Of a DNA stretch of 64,000 nucleotides, positions 30,806 to 41,732 are shown piece by piece. A program made the position numbers and the translations under genes. How positions within the stretch are numbered: position 1 is the stretch's first letter; every line of letters begins with the position of its first letter. Source of the DNA: Streptomyces sp. NBC_01275 (GTDB taxonomy: Bacteria; Actinomycetota; Actinomycetes; Streptomycetales; Streptomycetaceae). The DNA is taken from assembly GCF_026340655.1 (NCBI RefSeq), contig NZ_JAPEOZ010000001.1, positions 6,634,001-6,698,000 of the forward strand, in the 5' to 3' direction. The notes beneath the pieces were generated by a model. It had not been told where the DNA came from, did no database searches, and saw only the letters and a list, made by a program, of their open reading frames with translations.

Positions 30806-32053
30806 CACCTGCAGGAGTTTGTTCGGCGAACCGGGGCCCCGGCCGGAGACCTTGCCGTTCGCCGCTCCCGCGACCAGCGCCCTGGCGACCTGAGCGGGGG
30901 TGGCCGTCGGGTGGTCGGCCAGATAGAGCGCGGCCGCGCCCGCCGCGTGCGGCGCCGCCGTCGACGTACCGGAGTAGGTCGCCCGGCCGGTGTCGCTCGG
31001 GTACGACGCGGAGGTGATCGACACGCCCGGGGCGAACAGGTCGAGCGCCGAGCCGTGGTTGGAGTAGCCGACCCTGGCGTCCTGGCGGTCGGTGGCTCCG
31101 ACGGTGACGGCCTCGCGTACGTCGGCGGGGGAGTACAGAGCGGCCGCCCGGCCCTCGTTGCCGGCGGCGACGGTGTAGGTGACGCCGGACCGGATGGAGG
31201 CGCGGACGGCGGCGTCCAGTTGGACGTTGTAGGAGCCGCCCAGGCTGAGGTTGGCGACGGCGGGCCGGTGCGCGTGCCGGGTGACCCAGTCGATGCCCGC
31301 GATGGCCTGCGCGGTGGTGCCCGCGCCGGTGTCGTCCAGGACCCGTACGGCGACCACCCTGGCCTTCTTGGCGACGCCGACGTGGGCGCCCGCGACGGTG
31401 CCGGCGACATGGGTGCCGTGGCCGTTGCCGTCGGCGGCGGTGCGGTCCCCGCCGACGAAGTCCCAGCCGTAGCTCGCCCGGCCGCCGAACTCCTGGTGCG
31501 TGACGCGGACGCCGGTGTCGATGACGTACACCGTCACCCCTGCCCCCGCGGACGCCGGCGAGGTGTAGCGGTCGTCGAGCGGCAGGGACGGCTGGTCGAC
31601 GCGGTCCAGCCCCCAGGACGGCGGGTTCCTCCCCACGGCCTTCCCCGCGACCTCCCTCCCCGTGCCCCCCTTCCCCACGACCCCCTTCCCTGCGGAGTCC
31701 AGGGTCACCCGGGTGTCCTGGACGACCGAGGCGACGTGCGGGTCGGCGGCGAGCCGCCGGGCCTGTCTCGCGTCGGCCGCCACGGCGAAGCCGTTGAGGA
31801 CCGTGCCGTAGGTGTGGCTGATTCTCGCTCCGTACGCCCTGACGAGGCGTCGCCCGGCCGCGGAGGACGCCTGTGTGCCCCCTTTCAGCGTCACCAGGTA
31901 GCTTCCGCCGACGGAGCCGGGCAGACCGGCGCCGACTATCTTCCCCTCCGGTGCGGCGTGCGCGGGCAGGGTGCCGGCCGACAGGACCACGGTCGTGACG
32001 ACCGCGGTCAGGCCCCCTGCCCCGCGCAGACGCCGGGTACGCGTCCGTGCCAT
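30794..32053 (-). CDS. Secreted subtilisin-like serine protease (S8)
   Basis: A 419-residue exported endopeptidase. The signal peptide (residues 1-34) ends at AHA-AP. An I9 propeptide/inhibitor domain follows (about 45-125), then the S8 catalytic domain (about 150-410). The triad is Asp in YVIDTGVRV, His in NGHGTHVAGT and Ser in GTSTAAPHAAG, with the oxyanion Asn in AAGNEG. The protein stops right after the catalytic domain, with no binding module. The ATG at 32051-32053 has GGAGGGG 10 bases upstream. It is divergent from glgP (223 bases) and lies upstream of glgE on the same strand. Probably a nutrient-scavenging or developmental protease. Confidence 0.95.
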   Translation of the reverse strand: MARTRTRRLRGAGGLTAVVTTVVLSAGTLPAHAAPEGKIVGAGLPGSVGGSYLVTLKGGTQASSAAGRRLVRAYGARISHTYGTVLNGFAVAADARQARRLAADPHVASVVQDTRVTLDSAGKGVVGKGGTGREVAGKAVGRNPPSWGLDRVDQPSLPLDDRYTSPASAGAGVTVYVIDTGVRVTHQEFGGRASYGWDFVGGDRTAADGNGHGTHVAGTVAGAHVGVAKKARVVAVRVLDDTGAGTTAQAIAGIDWVTRHAHRPAVANLSLGGSYNVQLDAAVRASIRSGVTYTVAAGNEGRAAALYSPADVREAVTVGATDRQDARVGYSNHGSALDLFAPGVSITSASYPSDTGRATYSGTSTAAPHAAGAAALYLADHPTATPAQVARALVAGAANGKVSGRGPGSPNKLLQVPPF

Positions 32054-32276
32054 GGTTCGAGTTCCCCTCCTCGACTCAAGAGGCAGCCTCTCGTGCGGGG
32101 TGAAGTGCCACAAGGTGGCCTGTGTGAGTGGAATCAGCCATATCGCTGGAATGCGTGATTCGGTCCCTTCGGGGAAAGCCTCCCCCAGGTGTCGGGGCAA
32201 CACCGGTACGGTTCTGAGTCACCGGGCGTACAGAGCCGTGCGTCCATCCAGCGAACGCGCCACGCCGAGGTGGAAT

Positions 32277-34901
32277 GTGAAGGCGATCCGTCGATTCACC
32301 GTCCGACCCCTCCTCCCCGAACCCCTCCGGCCGCTCAGCGATCTGGCCCGGAATCTGCGGTGGTCCTGGCACGCGGAAACCCGTGACCTGTTCCAGTCCG
32401 TCGATCCCGAACGCTGGGCCGCCTACGACGGCGACCCGGTGCGACTGCTCGGCGGGGTCCGCCCCGCACGGCTCGCCGAGCTCGCCCAGGACCGCCGCTT
32501 CCTGCGCCGGCTGACCGCCGCCGTCGACGACCTGCACGACTACGTGACCGGCGACCGCTGGTACCAGGCGCACGCCGGGACGGCCGAGCTTCCCGCCGCC
32601 GTCGCCTACTTCTCCCCCGAGTTCGGCGTCACGGCCGCCCTGCCCCAGTACTCCGGCGGCCTCGGCATCCTCGCCGGCGACCATCTGAAGGCGGCCAGCG
32701 ACCTGGGCGTCCCGCTGATCGGCGTCGGGCTGCTCTACCGGCACGGCTACTTCCGGCAGTCGCTGTCCCGGGACGGCTGGCAGCAGGAGCACTACCCCGT
32801 GCTGGACCCCAACGAGCTGCCGGTGACCCTGCTGAGGGAGGCCGACGGCAGCCCCGCCCGGGTCTCCCTCGCCCTCCCCGCCGGCAAGCAGCTGCACGCC
32901 CGGATCTGGCTCGCCCAGGTCGGCCGCGTGCCCCTCCTCATGCTCGACTCGGACGTCGAGGAGAACGACCTCGGCGAACGCGGGGTGACCGACCGGCTCT
33001 ACGGCGGCGGCAGCGAGCACCGGCTGCTCCAGGAGATGCTCCTGGGCATAGGAGGTGTCCGGGCCGTACGGACGTACTGCCGTCTGACCGGTCACGCGCC
33101 GCCCGAGGTCTTCCACACCAACGAGGGGCACGCCGGGTTCCTCGGTCTGGAGCGGATCGCCGAACTCGCCGACACCGGGCTGGACTTCGACTCCGCGCTG
33201 GAGGCGGTCCGGGCCGGCACCGTCTTCACCACCCACACGCCGGTCCCGGCCGGCATCGACCGCTTCGACCGCGAGCTGGTCGCCCGCCACTTCGGCCCCG
33301 ACGCCGAACTTCCGCGCATCGACGTCGACCGCGTCCTGCGGCTGGGCATGGAGACCTACCCCGGCGGCGAGCCGAACCTCTTCAACATGGCCGTGATGGG
33401 GCTGCGCCTGGCCCAGCGGGCCAACGGGGTGTCGTTGCTGCACGGCCAGGTCAGCCGCGAGATGTTCGCCGGTCTCTGGCCCGGCTTCGACCCCGAGGAG
33501 GTGCCGATCACCTCCGTCACCAACGGGGTGCACGCCCCGACCTGGGTGGCCCCGGAGGTGCTGCGCCTCGGCGCCCGCCAGATCGGCGCCGAGCGCACCG
33601 AGGACGCGCTGAGCGTCGGCGGCACGGACCGCTGGGACGCGGTCGCGGAGATCGGCGACCAGGACGTCTGGGAGCTGCGCCGGACCCTGCGCGAACAGCT
33701 GGTCGTGGAGGTGCGCGAGCGGCTGCGCGCCTCCTGGCGTCAACGAGGCGCGGGAACGGCCGAGTTGGGCTGGATCGACGGCGTGCTGGACCCCGACGTC
33801 CTCACCATCGGATTCGCCCGCCGCGTCCCGTCGTACAAGCGGCTGACGTTGATGCTGCGCGACCGCGACCGGCTGATGGAGCTGCTCCTGCATCCGGAGC
33901 ATCCGATCCAGATCGTCGTCGCGGGCAAGGCGCATCCGGCGGACGACGGCGGAAAGCGGCTGGTCCAGGAGCTGGTCCGGTTCGCCGACGACCCGCGCGT
34001 GCGCCACCGCATCGTCTTCCTCCCCGACTACGGCATGGCCATGGCGCAGAAGCTGTACCCGGGCTGCGACATCTGGCTGAACAACCCGCTCCGCCCGCTG
34101 GAGGCCTGCGGCACGTCCGGCATGAAGGCGGCGCTGAACGGCTGTCTCAACCTCTCCGTCCTGGACGGCTGGTGGGACGAGTGGTTCCAGCCCGACTTCG
34201 GCTGGGCGATCCCGACCGCCGACGGCGTCGGCACCGACCCCGACCACCGGGACGACGTCGAGGCGGCGGCGCTCTACGACCTCCTGGAGCAGCGCATCAC
34301 CCCCCGCTTCTACGAGCGCGGCCGGGCGGGTCTGCCCGACCGCTGGATCCAGATGGTCCGCCAGACCCTCACCCTGCTCGGCCCGAAGGTGCTGGCCGGC
34401 CGGATGGTCCGCGAGTACGTCGAGCGCCTCTACGCCCCCGCCGCCCACGCCCACCGGGCGCTGACCCCCGACACCGCCCGTGAACTGGCCGTCTGGAAGA
34501 CGCGGGTGCGCTCCGCCTGGCACGCGGTGACGGTCGACCACGTCGAGACGTCCATCGCCACGACCACGGCCGAACTCGGCACCACCCTCGCGCTGCGGGT
34601 CCGCGTCGGCCTCGGCGACCTGGCCCCCGACGACGTCGAGGTCCAGGCGGTCTCCGGCCGCGTCGACGAGGAGGACCGCCTCACCGACGCGACGACGGTC
34701 CCCCTGAAACCGGCGGGCGGCCCCGACCTGGAGGGCAGGTGGCTGTACGAGGGCCCGCTGTCACTGGACCGCACGGGCCCGTTCGGCTACACGGTCCGCA
34801 TCCTGCCGACGCACCGACTGCTGGCGTCGGGCGCGGAGTTGGGGCTGGTGACGGTGCCTTCGGAGGATGCGGTGGAGGGGGCGGGGGTGTTGTTGCGGTG
34901 A
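32277..34901 (+). CDS. glgP: Glycogen/maltodextrin phosphorylase
   Basis: Phosphorolyses alpha-1,4-glucans from the non-reducing end to glucose 1-phosphate. The 874-residue protein is of the actinobacterial alpha-glucan phosphorylase type, beginning with the RFTVRPLLPEPLRPLSDLA segment. Catalytic regions include YFSPEFGV, the HTNEGHAGF and FTTHTPVPAG segments, and the pyridoxal-phosphate lysine in GTSGMKAALNG. The C-terminal 150 residues form an extra beta-rich domain. GTG 32277 has GAGGTGGA just upstream; the longer open frame is not coding. It is divergent from the subtilase and next to the GlgE cluster, so synthesis and breakdown genes are adjacent but oppositely oriented. Confidence 0.96.
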   Translation: MKAIRRFTVRPLLPEPLRPLSDLARNLRWSWHAETRDLFQSVDPERWAAYDGDPVRLLGGVRPARLAELAQDRRFLRRLTAAVDDLHDYVTGDRWYQAHAGTAELPAAVAYFSPEFGVTAALPQYSGGLGILAGDHLKAASDLGVPLIGVGLLYRHGYFRQSLSRDGWQQEHYPVLDPNELPVTLLREADGSPARVSLALPAGKQLHARIWLAQVGRVPLLMLDSDVEENDLGERGVTDRLYGGGSEHRLLQEMLLGIGGVRAVRTYCRLTGHAPPEVFHTNEGHAGFLGLERIAELADTGLDFDSALEAVRAGTVFTTHTPVPAGIDRFDRELVARHFGPDAELPRIDVDRVLRLGMETYPGGEPNLFNMAVMGLRLAQRANGVSLLHGQVSREMFAGLWPGFDPEEVPITSVTNGVHAPTWVAPEVLRLGARQIGAERTEDALSVGGTDRWDAVAEIGDQDVWELRRTLREQLVVEVRERLRASWRQRGAGTAELGWIDGVLDPDVLTIGFARRVPSYKRLTLMLRDRDRLMELLLHPEHPIQIVVAGKAHPADDGGKRLVQELVRFADDPRVRHRIVFLPDYGMAMAQKLYPGCDIWLNNPLRPLEACGTSGMKAALNGCLNLSVLDGWWDEWFQPDFGWAIPTADGVGTDPDHRDDVEAAALYDLLEQRITPRFYERGRAGLPDRWIQMVRQTLTLLGPKVLAGRMVREYVERLYAPAAHAHRALTPDTARELAVWKTRVRSAWHAVTVDHVETSIATTTAELGTTLALRVRVGLGDLAPDDVEVQAVSGRVDEEDRLTDATTVPLKPAGGPDLEGRWLYEGPLSLDRTGPFGYTVRILPTHRLLASGAELGLVTVPSEDAVEGAGVLLR

Positions 34902-34925
34902 GCCCACCGCAGCGGTGAGCCCTCC

Positions 34926-34979
34926 CGAGTGGTGAACCCCCGAGTGGTGAACCCCCGAGTGGTGAACCCCCGAGTGGTG
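34926..34979. repeat. 15-bp tandem repeats between convergent glgP and the STAND gene
   Basis: CGAGTGGTGAACCCC is repeated perfectly three times (34926, 34941, 34956) with a partial fourth (34971-34979) ending at the stop codon of the STAND gene. It fills most of the gap after glgP. No hairpin terminator is seen here. Confidence 0.9.
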
Positions 34980-37900
34980 TCAGGCCGGCCAGGTGAAGGG
35001 CGTGCTGTCCTGCGCCGGTTGGGCGTCTCCTTCGTATGCCAGCGGCTGCAGCGGTTCCAGCAGCCGCTCCAGCTCGGGGTTGAGCTCCAGCGCCCAGGCG
35101 AGACCGGGGGGCGCCGGGGCCGGGGGCTCGTCCGGATCGGCGCCGGGAGGCGGCCTGAGCACGTCCCCGACGGTGAGGAGTTCCTGGAACGCCTGCTGAT
35201 CGCGGGCCTGTTCGTCCACGGTCGGGATCTGGCGGACCCCCGGGACCGTCAGATCCAGCCGGAAGCGGGGCACCTTCGGGGCCGGCAGCGCGTTCGGCCG
35301 GACCTTGCGGGCCACCCGCAGCCGGATCCCCGTCACCTGGCGCAGCCTCGCCAGCAGACGGGGCCAACGGGTCTCCCGCAACCGCTCCAGCCGGACGCGC
35401 CTGCGGCGCCGGGCGGCGAGGTCGTTCGCCTCCCGGAGCAGCTCCCTCCACCGGAGGGCTCCGGAGTAGCTGTCCCAGGTCTCGAACGCGTCCCAGGCCA
35501 CCCACGCGGCCTGCCGCAGCGTCGCCTCGACGGTCTCGTCGAACTCGGCGGGCCGTTCCCGCGCCAGCTCGCGATAGAGCAACAGCGACCGGAAGACCGT
35601 CCGGGTCGCCTCGATGCCCCCGCCGGACTTGTTCAGCACCCCGGCCCGGATCCGCAGCACCCGGGCGACCATCGGGCGGTAGATGACCGGCTGGTCCTGC
35701 ACGAGCTGCAAGGTCACCCGCAGGCATTCGTCGACCACCTTCCCGGCCGCCGAGTACCGGCCCAGCGCCGCCAGCTCCAGCGCCTGGTTGTGCAACGACT
35801 CCATCAGGCCGGGCAGATACATGTCCGGATGGACCTGGGCGAGTCTGCGCCGGATCAGCACGGCGTGCGTGACCGTCTCCAGTGCGCTCTGGCCGGGGGA
35901 TCGGCGGTTGGCGAGGTTGTGCAGCGCCCCCGCGAGCAGCGCCAGATGCCGGCGGGTGGGGCGTTCCTTGACCAGCTGCTCCAGGATCTCCACGGCCTCC
36001 TCTCCGGCGGTGAGCGCCTCGCGCCGCATGTCCCGCGCGGCCAGCACCACCGACAGGTGGTTCAGCGCCTGGGCGAGCCGGGCCCGGTGCGGCATCAGCT
36101 CGGCCCGGGAGTGCGCACCCGACTCGCCCGCCACGAGACGCCGGTTGACGCGCACCGCCTCCGCGCAGTCCGCGAGCGCCTCCTGGTACTGCCCGAGCTC
36201 GGACAGCGCGGCCCAGCGCACCCCCAGGGACTCGGCGAGCAGCGGCAGGTATTCGTCGGGGCGGGCGCGGGCCAGCCCCCGGTAGAGCTGCACCGCCCGT
36301 CCGCTCGACTCCATGGCATCCGCCCAACGCCGTACGGAGCTGAACCGGACCGCCAGATTGTGCTCGGCGCGCGCCAGCTCGGCCCGTGCCTGCGCCGGGG
36401 CGAGCGCGCCGCCCGAGAGGCGGGCCCGGCGACGGCGTACGCGGGCGAGCCGCTCGGCGATGTCCAGCGCCTGCTCGCCCAGCAGCCGACTGCGCTCGGG
36501 CACCGCCGTGTGCAGGTGCTCCAGCAGTTCCAGCGGCAGGTCGGGGCGCTCGGCCAGGCGGCGCAGCGCGTCCAGCAGGAAGCCGGGGTTCTCCGAGCGC
36601 CCCGCGACCACGACCGCGGGGACGGCGAGCACACCGGGATGGCCGACGATCAGCTCCGCCACCTGAGCGGCCAGGTCCGGGTGCGGGCAGGTGGGCTGGG
36701 CCGCCGCTCGGGCCAGCACGGTCAGCGCCCGTTCGGCCTCCCGGCCCTGCAGTCGCGGCAGCACCCGGGCGAGGAGCTCCTGGCTGTCGCGGGCGCGCAG
36801 CGCCACGTGGTATTCGCCGAGCAGATCCGGTTCCAGGGCGCCCCAGTGCGAGCCCTCGACCGGCGGGTACAGCAGACGCAGCCAGTCCGCCGCCGCGGCG
36901 CTCCGGCCGTCCCCGGCCAGGTCCGGCAGCAGCGTCAGCAGTTCGGCGGCGCGGCCCGGATCCGCGGCGCGGGTCAGCGTCGCCACCGCCACCGCGTCGG
37001 CCAGGGCGTCGTGACCGAGCCCGTCCAGCTCGGACCAGGAGCCGGCGGTGCGCTTCCAGTACCGCCGCTCATGGGCGAGGAGCTCCGCCTGGACGTCCGG
37101 CTCCCGGCGGCGGGCGGCGGGCTGCTCCTCGGAGACTTCCTCACGATGTCCGTGACGGGCTTCGTGACGGGTTTCGCGAGGGGGTTCGGGAGTGGTTTCG
37201 TGACGGGTTTCGCGAGGGGCGTCCCCGCGGCTCGCTCCGGCCTGTCCGGCCTGTCCGGCCTGTTTGACCTGTCTGCCGTGCCCGGTGTGCCGATCGGCCG
37301 CCGTCAGCAGGTCCAGCAGCGCCCGCATGTGCAGATGCAGCGCCGAGCCGTGGCCGTAGTCCCGGTACGGCTTCGCCAGCACCGACCGGGTGACCGAGGC
37401 CCAGTCGATCCGGGTGTACTCCGGCAGCTCCCGCAGCGCGGGCAGCCGCCGGGACAGGGCCTCCACCGCCGTCCGGTACATGCCTTCCCGCTCCGCCGAC
37501 GTCGAGGCGATCTCGCGCAGTTCGACCGTGCGGGCCCCGCTGAGCACCCCGGCGCTGCGCGGTGTGGCCCCGGGCAACTGCTCCCACCACTCGCCCGCGC
37601 TCCGGGCGATGAGCACCATGCGCACCGGATGGTGGCCGCCGCGTGCCTCCAGCGTCTCCAGCACGCTGCCCACCAGCTCGGGGCTGGTCTCGGCGTAGTC
37701 CATGACCAGCAGCATCCGGTGGTCGACCGCGGTCAGCGCCTCCAACGACCGGACCAGCTCGGCCCGTTCCGCGTCCGACTCGCGCAGTTGGGCCGTCACC
37801 CACCCCTGGGTCGCCAGGGTCACCGACAGCTCCCGCGCGAACCGCGACTTGCCCTGCCCGCCGGGTCCCGTGATCAGCCGGGTGGCGAGACCGCCGCCGT

Positions 37901-38714
37901 CGCCGCACCAGTCCCCGAACTCGCGCAGCTCCCGGTCCCGGCCGGCGAACGGCACCGCCTCGGCCTGCGGGCGCAGCAACTCCGAGGGCAGCCTCGGCGC
38001 ACGGCTGGGCACCGCGGGTTCGCACAGGGCCTCCAGCTCGACGGCCTCGGCGACCGGAACGTACCCCAACTCCCGGGTGAGCAAGGACCGCAGCCCCTCC
38101 TCGCGCAGCAGCCGGTGCGCCGGTACGGCCTGGAGCTTGCCATGGCGCCAGTGCGCCAGGTCGACGGCGACCACCCCGCACAGGAGCCGCCCGCTCCACA
38201 GGGCCGCCCCGGACATCCCGCTCCACGGCGACTCGTCGAGGCCGGCCGGCGCCCGGTCCACGGAGAGCTCCCAGTGCGCGCCGAGCATCCCGTCCCCGGG
38301 GCTGACCGTGCCGGACGCCTGGGCGGTCTCCAGACCGTCCGCCCGCCGGGCGCCCTGCACGCGCGCGAAGCCGAGGGCGTCGGCGGGCTGACCCGCCCGC
38401 AGCGTCACGAACCTCCCGAACCGTACGGGCGGTTCGGCGGCGTCCTGCGGCCAGTGCTCCGGGGCGACCTGGAGCACGGCGGCGTCGAGTCCCGCCGCAC
38501 GTCCGTCCCAGACGAGGCGGGCGGGCACGAGCCGACCGACGGCGAACAGCTGCACATGCACCTGCACATGGGCGGCCGACATCGCCGCGCCCTGCGGCTG
38601 CAGCGCATGCCCGGCGGTCAGCACCAGCCGCGGCGCGATCACGCACCCCGAACTCACCCGAGGACGCTTGCCCTTGACGCTCGCCCGAACGGCGACCAGC
38701 CGGTTTCTGTTCAT
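34980..38714 (-). CDS. Trypsin-like/STAND ATPase/TPR conflict protein
   Basis: A 1244-residue multidomain protein. Residues about 5-200 form a trypsin-like fold with His36 (LTAGHAL), Asp77 (LDAAV) and Ser168 in GMSGAA. Residues about 255-500 are a P-loop STAND/NACHT-like ATPase: Walker A GPGGQGKS (283-290), Walker B LLVMDYAE (335-342), and the YRDYGHGSALHLHMRALL region. A Gly/Gln then Arg/Glu/His/Pro linker (about 480-545) comes from DNA repeats. From about 550 the protein is all-helical, with TPR-like repeats (for example HNLAVRFSSVRRWADAMESS). There is no signal peptide or membrane helix. The Trypco2-type gene ends 4 bases upstream. Such proteins are predicted NTP-dependent immune sensors; activation and target are unknown. 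Confidence 0.9.
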   Translation of the reverse strand: MNRNRLVAVRASVKGKRPRVSSGCVIAPRLVLTAGHALQPQGAAMSAAHVQVHVQLFAVGRLVPARLVWDGRAAGLDAAVLQVAPEHWPQDAAEPPVRFGRFVTLRAGQPADALGFARVQGARRADGLETAQASGTVSPGDGMLGAHWELSVDRAPAGLDESPWSGMSGAALWSGRLLCGVVAVDLAHWRHGKLQAVPAHRLLREEGLRSLLTRELGYVPVAEAVELEALCEPAVPSRAPRLPSELLRPQAEAVPFAGRDRELREFGDWCGDGGGLATRLITGPGGQGKSRFARELSVTLATQGWVTAQLRESDAERAELVRSLEALTAVDHRMLLVMDYAETSPELVGSVLETLEARGGHHPVRMVLIARSAGEWWEQLPGATPRSAGVLSGARTVELREIASTSAEREGMYRTAVEALSRRLPALRELPEYTRIDWASVTRSVLAKPYRDYGHGSALHLHMRALLDLLTAADRHTGHGRQVKQAGQAGQAGASRGDAPRETRHETTPEPPRETRHEARHGHREEVSEEQPAARRREPDVQAELLAHERRYWKRTAGSWSELDGLGHDALADAVAVATLTRAADPGRAAELLTLLPDLAGDGRSAAAADWLRLLYPPVEGSHWGALEPDLLGEYHVALRARDSQELLARVLPRLQGREAERALTVLARAAAQPTCPHPDLAAQVAELIVGHPGVLAVPAVVVAGRSENPGFLLDALRRLAERPDLPLELLEHLHTAVPERSRLLGEQALDIAERLARVRRRRARLSGGALAPAQARAELARAEHNLAVRFSSVRRWADAMESSGRAVQLYRGLARARPDEYLPLLAESLGVRWAALSELGQYQEALADCAEAVRVNRRLVAGESGAHSRAELMPHRARLAQALNHLSVVLAARDMRREALTAGEEAVEILEQLVKERPTRRHLALLAGALHNLANRRSPGQSALETVTHAVLIRRRLAQVHPDMYLPGLMESLHNQALELAALGRYSAAGKVVDECLRVTLQLVQDQPVIYRPMVARVLRIRAGVLNKSGGGIEATRTVFRSLLLYRELARERPAEFDETVEATLRQAAWVAWDAFETWDSYSGALRWRELLREANDLAARRRRRVRLERLRETRWPRLLARLRQVTGIRLRVARKVRPNALPAPKVPRFRLDLTVPGVRQIPTVDEQARDQQAFQELLTVGDVLRPPPGADPDEPPAPAPPGLAWALELNPELERLLEPLQPLAYEGDAQPAQDSTPFTWPA

Positions 38715-38718
38715 GTGC

Positions 38719-39081
38719 TCACGCGGGCTCGGGCGGCACGAACAGCACCGCTTCGTCCCCGTCTCCGTCCCCGTCTCCGTCAGGGTCCCCGGCCATGTCC
38801 TGGGAGATCTCCACCGACGTGCCGTCCGCCCGCTTGGGCGTGAGGCTCAGGGAGACCTTGTGGGTCCGGGTCCGGCCGCCCTTCCCCTCGACGTCGCCCG
38901 AGACGACCCATGCCCTGAAACCGGTCTTCACGGTGACGTCCCGCCGCAGCTCGACGGTGAACTCCATCCCGATCGGCCCCACTTCGAACCGCAGATCCTC
39001 GTCGGCGGCAGCGGCCGAGGCCCGCAGCAACTCGTCCCGCACGAGTTGCACGGCGTCGGCCAGTTCAAGTTCATCGGGCAT
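38719..39081 (-). CDS. Trypco2-type small protein, partner of the STAND protease
   Basis: A 120-residue protein that I recognise as the trypsin-co-occurring domain 2 type: LELADAVQLVRDELLRAS at the N-terminus, then a beta-rich FEVGPIGMEFTVEL and a KVSLSLTP strand. The tail is a DPDGDGDGDGDE acidic run encoded by 6-base repeats, then VLFVPPEP. ATG 39079-39081 has GGGGGA 3 bases upstream; longer frames upstream are less likely. It ends 4 bases before the STAND gene, so the two are translationally linked. In published comparative work the domain occurs with trypsin-STAND conflict proteins; its role as regulator or effector is unproven. It is divergent from the membrane protein gene at 39239. Confidence 0.85.
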   Translation of the reverse strand: MPDELELADAVQLVRDELLRASAAAADEDLRFEVGPIGMEFTVELRRDVTVKTGFRAWVVSGDVEGKGGRTRTHKVSLSLTPKRADGTSVEISQDMAGDPDGDGDGDGDEAVLFVPPEPA

Positions 39082-39238
39082 ACGTCCCCCAGTGCCGACG
39101 CGGAGTGGAATGGCGCGCGCAGCGGTCCAAGAGGGACAGCGTGCCAGAGCGGCGGGTTCCGGAGCCCGGCTTCCGCCGTTTGTCACTCCCTGCTGGCACT
39201 ATGCCCGAACACCCAACTGACAGAAAGGCCGACGACGA

Positions 39239-40384
39239 GTGTCTGACAGACCGTTCGAAGAAAGCGGTTCCGGGTCCTCCCTGTCCGATGAGGAGTTGCG
39301 GAAGTTCCTCCAGGACAGCGAACGCGAGATACCGGCCTCCGCGCCGAAGGAGCCGTCCGCGCGGGCCCGTATGGTCACCGAGCGGCTGCGGCAGCAGGAC
39401 GCGCGGGGTGAGGTGTCAGAGGGCTGGCGGGCCGGTCCGACTGTGCAGGACGGGGAGAGGCGAGCGGCCCGCAAGCGGCGGCGGTGGGCGCTCCTCGGCG
39501 TGCCCGTCGTCATCGTTCTGGCCGTCGTGGCGATGCGGCCGTCGCTGCTGCCCGGCGACCCCTTCGGCGCCGGGGGGTCGGAGGCCGCCTCCGCGTCACC
39601 GCTGCCGGCGGAGACCGCGGCCCCGACCGGCGCGCCCGCGTCGGTGGACCCCGAAGTCCCCACGGTGGCACGGCCGTTCGCGGGTTCCCCGGCCCTGGAG
39701 TGGGCCGACGGCGCGGCCGGCATCGTGCTGCCGAAGGCGGCTGCGGTCGGGTCGCTGTCCAAGGCTCAGGTGGAGCAGGCGCTGCAGCAGACCAGGAAGC
39801 TCCTGATCGACGCGAACCTCGACCCCGCCACCCTGCGCGGCGAACGCCCCGAGACCGCGCTCGCCCTGATCGAGCCCCGACAGACGGACCTGCTCCGCCT
39901 GTTGAACACCGCGCTGAGCAAGCCGGACAAGGACCACGACCCGCTGTGGCTGTTCAGCCGGTTCGATCCCCACGAACTGCGGCTGGCCGGTGACGTGGTC
40001 AAGACCCGGGGACGGATGACGTTCAAGGCCGGCGAGCAGGCCTCGGTCGTCGTGCACGCCGACTACACCTTCGTCTACCCGCTGGCCCACACCGGCCAGG
40101 GCTCCACCGAGGTGGCCCGGACCATCGTCCGTCGCGTCCTCGACGTCGAGCTCTCCGATCCCGCCAAGTACATCGTCACCCCGGGAAAGATCTCCCTTCG
40201 GAAGTACGACCAGGAGATCGGCAACTCCGCCTGCGACGTCTACGACGGCTTCCTGCACCCCCAGTTCTCGACGGCCGAGCCCACGGGCACGCCCCCGACC
40301 GGGCCGACGACGGATCCGTACGACCGCAGCGGGGACATCGCCGCGGACCGTGACGAGGGCTGCGGCGTCGTGTCCCGCACCTGA
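39239..40384 (+). CDS. Single-pass membrane protein of unknown function
   Basis: A 381-residue protein starting at GTG 39239, with AAAGG about 10 bases upstream. A cytosolic hydrophilic N-terminus (1-82) leads to one membrane helix (about 83-99, LLGVPVVIVLAVVAM), followed by an Ala/Pro/Ser/Thr linker and an external domain (about 140-380). That domain contains LEWADGAAGIVLPKA and a mixed alpha/beta pattern, with two cysteines near the end (NSACDVYDG and DEGCG). Similar proteins occur across Streptomyces without a known function. It is divergent from the Trypco2 gene (157 bases), so a shared regulator or functional link is possible but unproven. Confidence 0.8.
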   Translation: MSDRPFEESGSGSSLSDEELRKFLQDSEREIPASAPKEPSARARMVTERLRQQDARGEVSEGWRAGPTVQDGERRAARKRRRWALLGVPVVIVLAVVAMRPSLLPGDPFGAGGSEAASASPLPAETAAPTGAPASVDPEVPTVARPFAGSPALEWADGAAGIVLPKAAAVGSLSKAQVEQALQQTRKLLIDANLDPATLRGERPETALALIEPRQTDLLRLLNTALSKPDKDHDPLWLFSRFDPHELRLAGDVVKTRGRMTFKAGEQASVVVHADYTFVYPLAHTGQGSTEVARTIVRRVLDVELSDPAKYIVTPGKISLRKYDQEIGNSACDVYDGFLHPQFSTAEPTGTPPTGPTTDPYDRSGDIAADRDEGCGVVSRT

Positions 40385-40514
40385 CCGGTCGGGGGCGGGA
40401 CCGGGGGCGGGGGCGGGTCGCCGCGGACGACGTACGCGAGTGCGGCGGCGGGGTGCCCTCGCCGCCGTGGTCGTCGAACCGGATCAGCGGTGGGCGCCGT
40501 TCCAGCTGACCTGG

Positions 40515-41039
40515 TCAGATGCCGAGGTCCTCGATGGTCTCCCTCATCTGGCGGGTCACCGGCGGGCCCCACCGTGCGGGCAACGGCGCCAGCCGGGCGA
40601 CAGCCGTGCCCAGCCACACGGGGTCGCCGAGGAGGTGCGGCGCCTTCGCGGCGGACACCTTTCGGAACAGGGCTTCCACCATGGTGACGTGGGCGGCCGT
40701 GTACCTGCGCCTGTGGTGGGTGTAGTTCACCGACCAGTCCTCGTACGGATGGCGAAGGAGACCCCCCACGGAACAGCCGCTCCGGCCGGCGCCGATCGAG
40801 CTGTTGCCCAGCACGTCCAGTACGCCCGCGGTGCGGGTGGACTCCCACGCGTAGTGCGTGGCACTCACCCCCACACCCACGAACCTGGTCCACGGGACGA
40901 CTGCCTGAGGCTCCGGCACTCCGCGTCGGTGATGCTCCATGCCGTCGGCGGCGAGCACCAGGCACAAGCCGTCCTTGCGCGTGGGATCTCCGATGACCCA
41001 GCGGTTCTCGATCAGCTCCAGCGGCCCCAGGTACTTCAC
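40515..41039 (-). CDS. Hypothetical protein, no recognised family
   Basis: A 174-residue cytosolic protein starting at GTG 41037-41039, with GAGGGGAAG 6 bases upstream. It is Trp- and His-rich for its size (VVPWTRFVGVGVSATHYAW, YEDWSVNYTHHRRRY) and ends in an Arg/Pro-rich segment. The first 75 residues look beta-rich, and could be a PH-like fold; that is a guess. It converges on the membrane protein gene, and the 130-base gap between them is only G-rich sequence. It may be an accessory gene of the STAND neighbourhood. Function unknown. Confidence 0.6.
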   Translation of the reverse strand: MKYLGPLELIENRWVIGDPTRKDGLCLVLAADGMEHHRRGVPEPQAVVPWTRFVGVGVSATHYAWESTRTAGVLDVLGNSSIGAGRSGCSVGGLLRHPYEDWSVNYTHHRRRYTAAHVTMVEALFRKVSAAKAPHLLGDPVWLGTAVARLAPLPARWGPPVTRQMRETIEDLGI

Positions 41040-41187
41040 ACCGCTTCCCCTCGTCGATCATGCGTTTGCCCGGGCTGAAACCCTAGGCGGAGACATCGGG
41101 CAGATCGAGCGGTTTCGGGGCGGCCCTTGATGCTCGTCGGTTGCGCGGAGTTCCTGCCAGAGGTCGGACGCGGTGCTCGTCGCCTGG

Positions 41188-41718
41188 TCAGGCCTCCTCG
41201 GGGTTCGTCACCGAGAGCTGGCGCAACACCACCCCGCAGCGGCGGGCGTACGCCTGTTGGAAGCCTCGGGTCGCCGGGCCGCCCATGCGGGCGTACCACT
41301 TCGCGGCGCGGCTGAACGCCGACACCGTCAGCCACACCGTGCCGTCGCCGGTGCGGTGGACGACGAAGGACTCCTCGCCGGACTCGGGGTGGCCGGAAAG
41401 CGTTCCATAGGCCCAGCCGGCGCGGCGGTGTTCCTCCGCCGTCCAGACGATGCGGCAGGGGGCCTTGATCAGGCCGGCCAGGGTGACGGTGACATCGACG
41501 TCGGGGGCCGCCCGGTCGGCGGTGGCGGTTATGCCTATGCCGAGCGCGCGGTGCATCTCCCAGGTGAGGACGGCCTCGGCGGCCCGGCGGAAGACCCGTT
41601 CGCCCTCGCCGAGACGGGTGCGTACGTGCAGGGGGTGGAAGCCGGGCGGGCAGAAACCGGGTTCGCGGGTCGCGCCGACGTCGTCGTACGTGAAGTCCTT
41701 GGAAGACTTGGAAGACAT
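41188..41718 (-). CDS. DUF1990 family protein
   Basis: A 176-residue protein with the DUF1990 pattern: an N-terminal FTYDDVGATR motif, GFHPLHVRTRLGEGERVFRRA, and a beta-rich START-like body with CRIVWTAEE, WAYGTLSGHPESGEE and VWLTVSAFSR. It ends shortly after LRQL. The start is ATG 41716-41718; a TTG three codons upstream is an alternative. Such proteins have no fixed role and are thought to bind lipid-like ligands. It lies downstream of the M4 protease terminator on the same strand, so it probably has its own promoter. Confidence 0.85.
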   Translation of the reverse strand: MSSKSSKDFTYDDVGATREPGFCPPGFHPLHVRTRLGEGERVFRRAAEAVLTWEMHRALGIGITATADRAAPDVDVTVTLAGLIKAPCRIVWTAEEHRRAGWAYGTLSGHPESGEESFVVHRTGDGTVWLTVSAFSRAAKWYARMGGPATRGFQQAYARRCGVVLRQLSVTNPEEA

Positions 41719-41732
41719 GGGGCCCAAGAGTA

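Follow-up and report, generated by a model that had tools for sequence, protein, structure and literature searches.

Trypco2 owes its name to VMAP systems, where it neighbors trypsin-like peptidases (Kaur et al. 2020, PMC7159879), and it has been called an adapter beside diversified sensors (PMC10907252); the passages of these two papers that name Trypco2 give no tested role. VMAP systems are MoxR-vWA ternary systems that, in the description given in passages of PMC7159879, resemble the locus studied here in having a small Trypco2 gene next to one for a trypsin-like peptidase and in being a predicted conflict system. Our locus is a Trypco2 gene and the large gene directly behind it in Streptomyces sp. 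NBC_01275, within a stretch of 64,000 nucleotides that we call the window (contig NZ_JAPEOZ010000001.1, positions 6,634,001 to 6,698,000). What sets the window apart from VMAP systems is that its peptidase forms one protein with a STAND ATPase, whose motifs are intact, and with tetratricopeptide repeats (TPRs). VMAP-C is absent from the large protein, P0001, and no VMAP, MoxR, or vWA match was found in 20 neighboring frames, a set in which several are not genuine genes.

A second point of reference is type 1 AVAST, in which the MBL-fold pro-nuclease Avs1a is cleaved by the trypsin of Avs1b (passages of PMC12799240). The literature searched, with supplementary files outside its scope, offers no trigger, activity, or phage phenotype for a Trypco2 pairing of the kind described here, and public records already carry the name ‘trypco2 family protein’. 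Comparison of relatives supports a pairing rule, by which Trypco2 would follow the protease and not the ATPase, and we consider it probable that the pair forms an accessory conflict system of NLR-like type, in which a STAND domain is predicted to gate the protease and Trypco2 to restrain it or be its substrate.

Anatomy of the pair

The two genes and their parts are laid out as follows.

38719..39081, minus strand: Trypco2 gene, 120 aa, first of the pair (PF19631, E=1.8e-26)
38836..39066, minus strand: Trypco2 folded core, residues 6-82, the span of the Pfam match
38722..38835, minus strand: Trypco2 C-terminal tail, a variable acidic linker and then an LF end
34980..38714, minus strand: trypsin-STAND-TPR gene (protein P0001), 1244 aa
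38070..38714, minus strand: trypsin-like domain with a Deg/HtrA-like fold, residues 1-215 of P0001; His36, Asp77, Ser168
37305..37964, minus strand: STAND P-loop ATPase, nSTAND_NTPase5-like, residues 251-470
37845..37868 and 37689..37712, minus strand: Walker A and Walker B, within the STAND ATPase of P0001
37095..37277, minus strand: low-complexity variable insert, residues 480-540 of P0001
36495..37094, minus strand: all-helical region, residues 541-740 of P0001, from the structure model
35475..36494, minus strand: TPR superhelix, presumed sensor, residues 741-1080 of P0001
34983..35474, minus strand: fast-changing C-terminal region, residues 1081-1244 of P0001

The original prediction, made from the letters of the window, had placed a 120-residue Trypco2-type protein 4 bases before a 1244-residue trypsin-STAND-TPR protein, and both halves of that description hold. 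The spacing is 4 bases, and the small protein, for which a Pfam search had been proposed, matches PF19631 at 92.6 bits against a curated cut-off of 24.2. P0001 has an intact catalytic triad and intact Walker motifs, and its structure model is good overall (mean predicted local distance difference test score, pLDDT, 88.5), with values below 50 at residues 495-525. A degenerate ATPase, raised beforehand as a possible objection, is not what we see: the STAND motifs are invariant across 56 aligned rows of relatives, K289 and D339 included. The nSTAND_NTPase5 profile (PF25199) scores 28.4 bits on P0001 against a curated cut-off of 34, precomputed annotation lists PF25199, and the top Foldseek match of the STAND region is 6mfv, a STAND-TPR protein (E 5.8e-8, TM 0.23 of the query). 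Model and fold matches thus place a protease at the N-terminus of P0001 and repeats at its C-terminus, from which we infer that the N-terminal part would be the effector and the repeats the sensor. Among close copies identity is 0.74 in the trypsin domain; among 11 of them it is 0.39 both in the variable insert (residues 480-540) and at the C-terminus (residues 1061-1244).

In Trypco2, over 12 close copies, mean pairwise identity is 0.77 in the core (residues 4-82), 0.38 in the linker (residues 92-108), and 0.58 at the end (residues 110-118), where 9 of the 12 carry an LFxPP motif. An AlphaFold2 model gives one helix and three strands (pLDDT 74.6) with a low-confidence tail, and neither profile scans nor this model show a membrane helix or a known toxic or nuclease domain. 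Outside the core, tails vary by subtype. By regular expression, 24 of 71 tails (25 of 71 if GPG is admitted) finish in a short peptide that has I, L, or V at one to three positions before the terminus, a post hoc count over related rows of a motif first spotted by eye; SG[RH]I is its frequent form, and by hand count the residue is Ile in 20 of the 24. Because Ile is the residue after which the Hachiman and AVAST trypsin-like proteases cleave (passages of PMC12799240), we would guess that the tail is a docking, pseudosubstrate, or cleavage peptide.

Trypco2 and the protease across relatives

Relatives in species genomes came from an alignment-based scan (a single-protein scan gave none), and 80 loci of 395 relatives were kept and examined with profiles for Trypco2, trypsin, and STAND. 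The trypsin domain is present in 77 of the 80; three of these (L032, L060, L070) meet a contig end upstream and were set aside, which leaves 74 trypsin-bearing loci with upstream DNA. Trypco2 lies directly 5' on the same strand in 70 of them, its stop at most 155 bases ahead of the trypsin domain, and beside none of the three trypsin-less genome loci (L067, L071, L078).

Plasmids give the same picture. Sixty-seven plasmid records match the large protein and 43 match Trypco2; the best 60 of the 67 comprise 37 trypsin-bearing records, 8 with STAND and no trypsin, and 15 matching in the TPR part only. Two trypsin-bearing rows (H118, H119) and the unclassed TPR-only rows (H102-H116) stand outside the counts. 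Among the remaining rows, a partly redundant sample with many near-copies on which Fisher tests are not independent, Trypco2 adjoins the trypsin gene in 35 of the 35 records checked and is found beside none of the 8 trypsin-less STAND records. Six related genomes of the genus have Trypco2 at 7 of 7 places. The earlier statement that Trypco2 accompanies such proteins is borne out (70 of 74 genome loci, 35 of 35 checked plasmid records).

Approached from the other side, a sample of 199 Streptomyces genomes has PF19631 in 127. Of the best 30 Streptomyces Trypco2 loci, 27 have an adjacent trypsin-like gene, 22 downstream and 5 divergent, with four of the five divergent trypsin calls made on only 13-18 bits plus His and Ser motifs. 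In the divergent set (L118, L119, L120, L124, L125) Trypco2 and the trypsin-like gene are neighbors and not an operon. Trypco2 also occurs with proteases on other chassis. At L102 it accompanies a trypsin-VMAP protein (VMAP-C 102.6 bits) next to an annotated MoxR gene, and at L103 a trypsin-ATPase-TPR protein whose ATPase is missed by the STAND profile and gives AAA_22, AAA_16, and NACHT matches, all below cut-offs.

Sequence divergence points the same way. Over 69 loci, the window's own included (L075 and L081, with no helical part, were dropped), pairwise distances of Trypco2 correlate with those of the trypsin domain at r 0.79, of the STAND domain at 0.69, and of the helical part at 0.60, with a bootstrap interval of 0.06-0.16 for the difference in r. 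Since trypsin and STAND sit in one polypeptide, shared descent is largely controlled. The partial r is 0.57 for Trypco2 and trypsin given STAND and 0.20 for Trypco2 and STAND given trypsin, and 0 of 2000 permutations reached either.

An excess of Trypco2 and protease genes in the same frame (33 of 70, binomial p 0.016) was dropped as weak and drawn from related rows. Neighbor clustering of frames of at least 130 codons, which misses shorter genes, found no third gene that recurs widely over the 80 loci, and the other clusters, of at most 9 loci each, were rejected as shadow frames, common families, or near-identical strains. One subfamily has a DUF4913 gene directly downstream of the pair (L061, 13152-13601, and its kin, with Pfam run on L061 only), and no DUF4913 match was seen among the neighbors in the window.

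A homologue search that scored the 7991 candidates sharing most words listed 83 homologous proteins, the window's own included, 73 of which have a trypsin domain. Among the ten that do not, P0074 has a TIR_2 match just below cut-off (26.5 versus 28), and several have a short N-terminus with a motif that by eye looks amyloid-like. At the level of loci there are 11 trypsin-less relatives, 3 from genomes and 8 from plasmids. In 6 of the 11 (L067, L078, L087, L088, L099, and L100, the last two near-copies) the N-terminal motif of the STAND protein resembles, by eye, the C-terminal motif of a small protein encoded upstream; such a resemblance was not noted in L071, L097, L098, L101, and L104. The labels ‘amyloid-like’, BASS, and BELL are given by resemblance. 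One further trypsin-less STAND relative, L098 (848-7605), has an alpha/beta-hydrolase gene upstream (LCAT/PGAP1 matches) and an N-terminus that by eye looks transglutaminase-like. We considered and set aside repeated module swapping: a fast STAND tree of 119 rows has 3 label changes, a tree of 44 rows has 2, but the approximately unbiased test (AU, p 0.74) does not reject a single clade. Our claim is that the N-terminal module is replaced in relatives, not that it was replaced repeatedly.

Genomic site, distribution and mobility

The pair sits between two genes that are neighbors in 10 of 20 other Streptomyces stretches examined.

31971..34901, plus strand: left flank glgP, alpha-glucan phosphorylase (Pfam)
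34902..41187, unstranded: inserted segment between glgP and DUF1990, holding the pair and further small genes
41188..41727, minus strand: right flank DUF1990 gene, followed by two M4 metallopeptidase genes

Beyond glgP lie a subtilase gene and glgE. glgP itself is present in 56 of 61 Streptomyces genomes searched, our own included, and from 20 of the 55 others, mostly at the top of the list, we took the stretch behind it. glgP and DUF1990 are adjacent in 10 of the 20 stretches (alignments 10-274 bases apart), other material or a rearrangement lies between them in 5 (L147, L153, L160, L161, L162), and DUF1990 was not found in the remaining 5 (L148, L154, L164, L165, L166, of which L148 and L154 reach a contig end). 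The pair is absent from all 20 (tblastn, 1e-10). Close copies of the large protein are rare as well, with none in the 60 other genomes of the genus and distant relatives in 6; at 1e-40 the 61-genome search matched 7 genomes, our own included, and the best match outside our own has 43% identity over residues 21-472. Among the 80 kept loci from species genomes, only L007 and L009 exceed 60% identity. Given the empty site and the rarity of close copies, the pair is by these comparisons a patchy insertion and not a core gene; universal conservation, raised with the original prediction as a possible objection, is not what we see.

In S. fulvoviolaceus the pair occupies the same glgP/DUF1990 site, with about 0.3 kb from the Trypco2 side to the DUF1990 side. 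The frames without a Pfam match that lie between the pair and the DUF1990 gene in the window (39239-41061) therefore look like a separate addition. The pair of Streptomyces sp. ODS25 sits elsewhere, since the 9 kb behind it have no similarity to the window. In another Streptomyces, L147 (201-5212), glgP and DUF1990 are separated by about 5 kb of different sequence, so that the site may be a minor hotspot for insertions. Directly behind the stop of the large gene of the window, where the inserted segment borders glgP, we observe a perfect 15-base tandem repeat of 3.7 copies (34924-34979). Elsewhere in the window's own genome another open frame, of 1953 aa (G000:C1:2837828-2840830), matches the helical and TPR part of P0001, and a search of the genome found only one Trypco2.

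Some relatives are carried on plasmids. On plasmids L091 and L092 a Tn3-family transposase gene and a recombinase gene flank the pair, and on plasmid L088 a Tn3-family transposase gene is followed by a small gene, then by a STAND-TPR gene without trypsin, and finally by a recombinase gene. The TPR-coding DNA of L091 and L088 is about 82% identical, with the STAND and N-terminal parts unaligned by blastn. These TPR-coding parts also align in many registers about 138 bases apart, which, in proteins with different front ends, suggests that repeats of the presumed sensor have turned over recently.

Explanations for the pair and its place among known systems

What argues for a conflict system is the intact protease, ATPase, and TPR anatomy taken together with the Trypco2 pairing, the patchiness, the carriage of relatives on plasmids and beside Tn3-family genes, and the exchange of the front end. 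The earlier reading of the pair as NLR-like is thus supported as a prediction, and the Trypco2 pairing is systematic. By this anatomy, the TPR superhelix would sense a trigger, probably an invader protein, the STAND domain would exchange or hydrolyze ATP and assemble, and assembly would unleash the N-terminal HtrA-like protease in the cell, leading to harm or arrest. Trypco2, encoded just ahead, would be the dedicated partner of the protease module, as the comparisons support. Most likely it binds and restrains the protease, and its flexible C-terminal peptide would then dock there or serve as a pseudosubstrate; alternatively, it may be a cognate substrate cleaved upon activation, and the two roles would be compatible if the brake were released by cutting the tail.

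Several observations weigh against this account. The triad is present and Trypco2 was not found in the DNA examined at four loci (L047, L063, L069, L076), so that Trypco2 is not required everywhere, and 3 of the best 30 Trypco2 loci have no trypsin within 1.5 kb. No recurrent effector substrate besides Trypco2 was found across loci among frames of at least 130 codons. The Trypco2 model, of moderate quality only, matched no solved structure among PDB folds. A search of 50,697 phage records gave no relative of the large protein, the neighbor frames scanned in the window include no mobile-element or other defense gene, the large gene of L092 is annotated in pieces only, and the trypsin-less relatives are compatible with one clade (AU p 0.74).

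A further reading, which we offer tentatively and think rather unlikely, is that Trypco2 is a portable protease gate, a small folded domain whose subtype-specific C-terminal peptide would sit in the active site of the cognate HtrA-like protease. The two would travel as a cassette on nSTAND-TPR, other ATPase-TPR, and VMAP-MoxR chassis, much as the pro-nuclease/trypsin pair was fitted to Hachiman, AVAST, and Lamassu, and activation would free or cut the peptide. It is also possible, if on balance somewhat unlikely, that Trypco2 is both substrate and executioner, the activated trypsin cutting it and a fragment acting on the cell, much as Avs1a is cut by Avs1b. The gene order is that of Avs1, with the partner directly upstream of the trypsin-STAND gene, and the proteases described in the same passages of PMC12799240 cut after Ile, the residue found in 20 of the 24 tails (of 71) that end with an I/L/V peptide. 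In some amyloid-type relatives, moreover, the small motif protein upstream occupies the place of the presumed killer BELL (passages of PMC7889193). Yet Trypco2 shows neither a membrane helix nor any recognized toxin or nuclease domain, its core is kept like the protease (0.77 versus 0.74), as for a binding partner, and the window-type tail, LFxPP, has no Ile.

Two further readings take Trypco2 or the whole pair out of this frame. Trypco2 might be a sensor or adaptor that delivers the trigger to the complex and not a partner of the protease, in keeping with its description as an adapter beside diversified sensors (PMC10907252). Such a role seems improbable when Trypco2 stays with trypsin even where the remainder is VMAP or another ATPase, is absent beside 11 of 11 trypsin-less STAND loci checked, and has a core that is not fast-evolving. 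A regulatory protease system, for instance in development or stress, has precedent in Streptomyces STAND-TPR regulators such as AfsR (abstract of PMC10936776) and would suit a pair that has no known killing effector, but we hold it unlikely, considering the patchy insertion, the rare close copies, the plasmid and Tn3 carriage of relatives, and the TIR-like or amyloid-like parts that stand in for the N-terminal module in some of them.

The pair can also be set beside two other described systems. In the BASS/BELL amyloid NLR signalosomes known from filamentous bacteria (passages of PMC7889193 and PMC12261475), the arrangement of an NLR N-terminal motif and an upstream protein's C-terminal motif resembles, by eye, that of 6 of the 11 trypsin-less relatives, whereas the N-terminal module of the window is a protease with Trypco2 upstream. 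CARD-NLR systems (passages of PMC13236601) likewise have a trypsin-like protease with an NLR-like ATPase protein; in P0001, by contrast, the protease fold starts at the first residues, without a preceding CARD, and no gasdermin match was seen among the neighbor frames scanned in the window.

What this study adds is the rule by which Trypco2 pairs with STAND-TPR proteins, and its exceptions; the parts were annotated before, and an earlier listing of the pairing in supplementary files is possible. It is the protease, rather than the ATPase, to which the data tie Trypco2, present in 127 of the 199 Streptomyces genomes, and the C-terminal peptide offers a concrete target through which the role of Trypco2 becomes directly testable. 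More broadly, members of a single STAND family carry different front ends: a protease, a TIR-like domain, or an amyloid-like motif. The closest functional parallel would be with Avs1, which as described in passages of PMC12799240 has an upstream partner gene, a trypsin-STAND protein, and STAND-switched proteolysis. The upstream partner there is an MBL-fold pro-nuclease and in the window it is Trypco2, and P0001 matches no Avs model of PADLOC at E<=1, its only match being mads_8 (E=0.056). Although it is not Avs1 by profile or partner, the pair would, among known systems, work most like Avs1.

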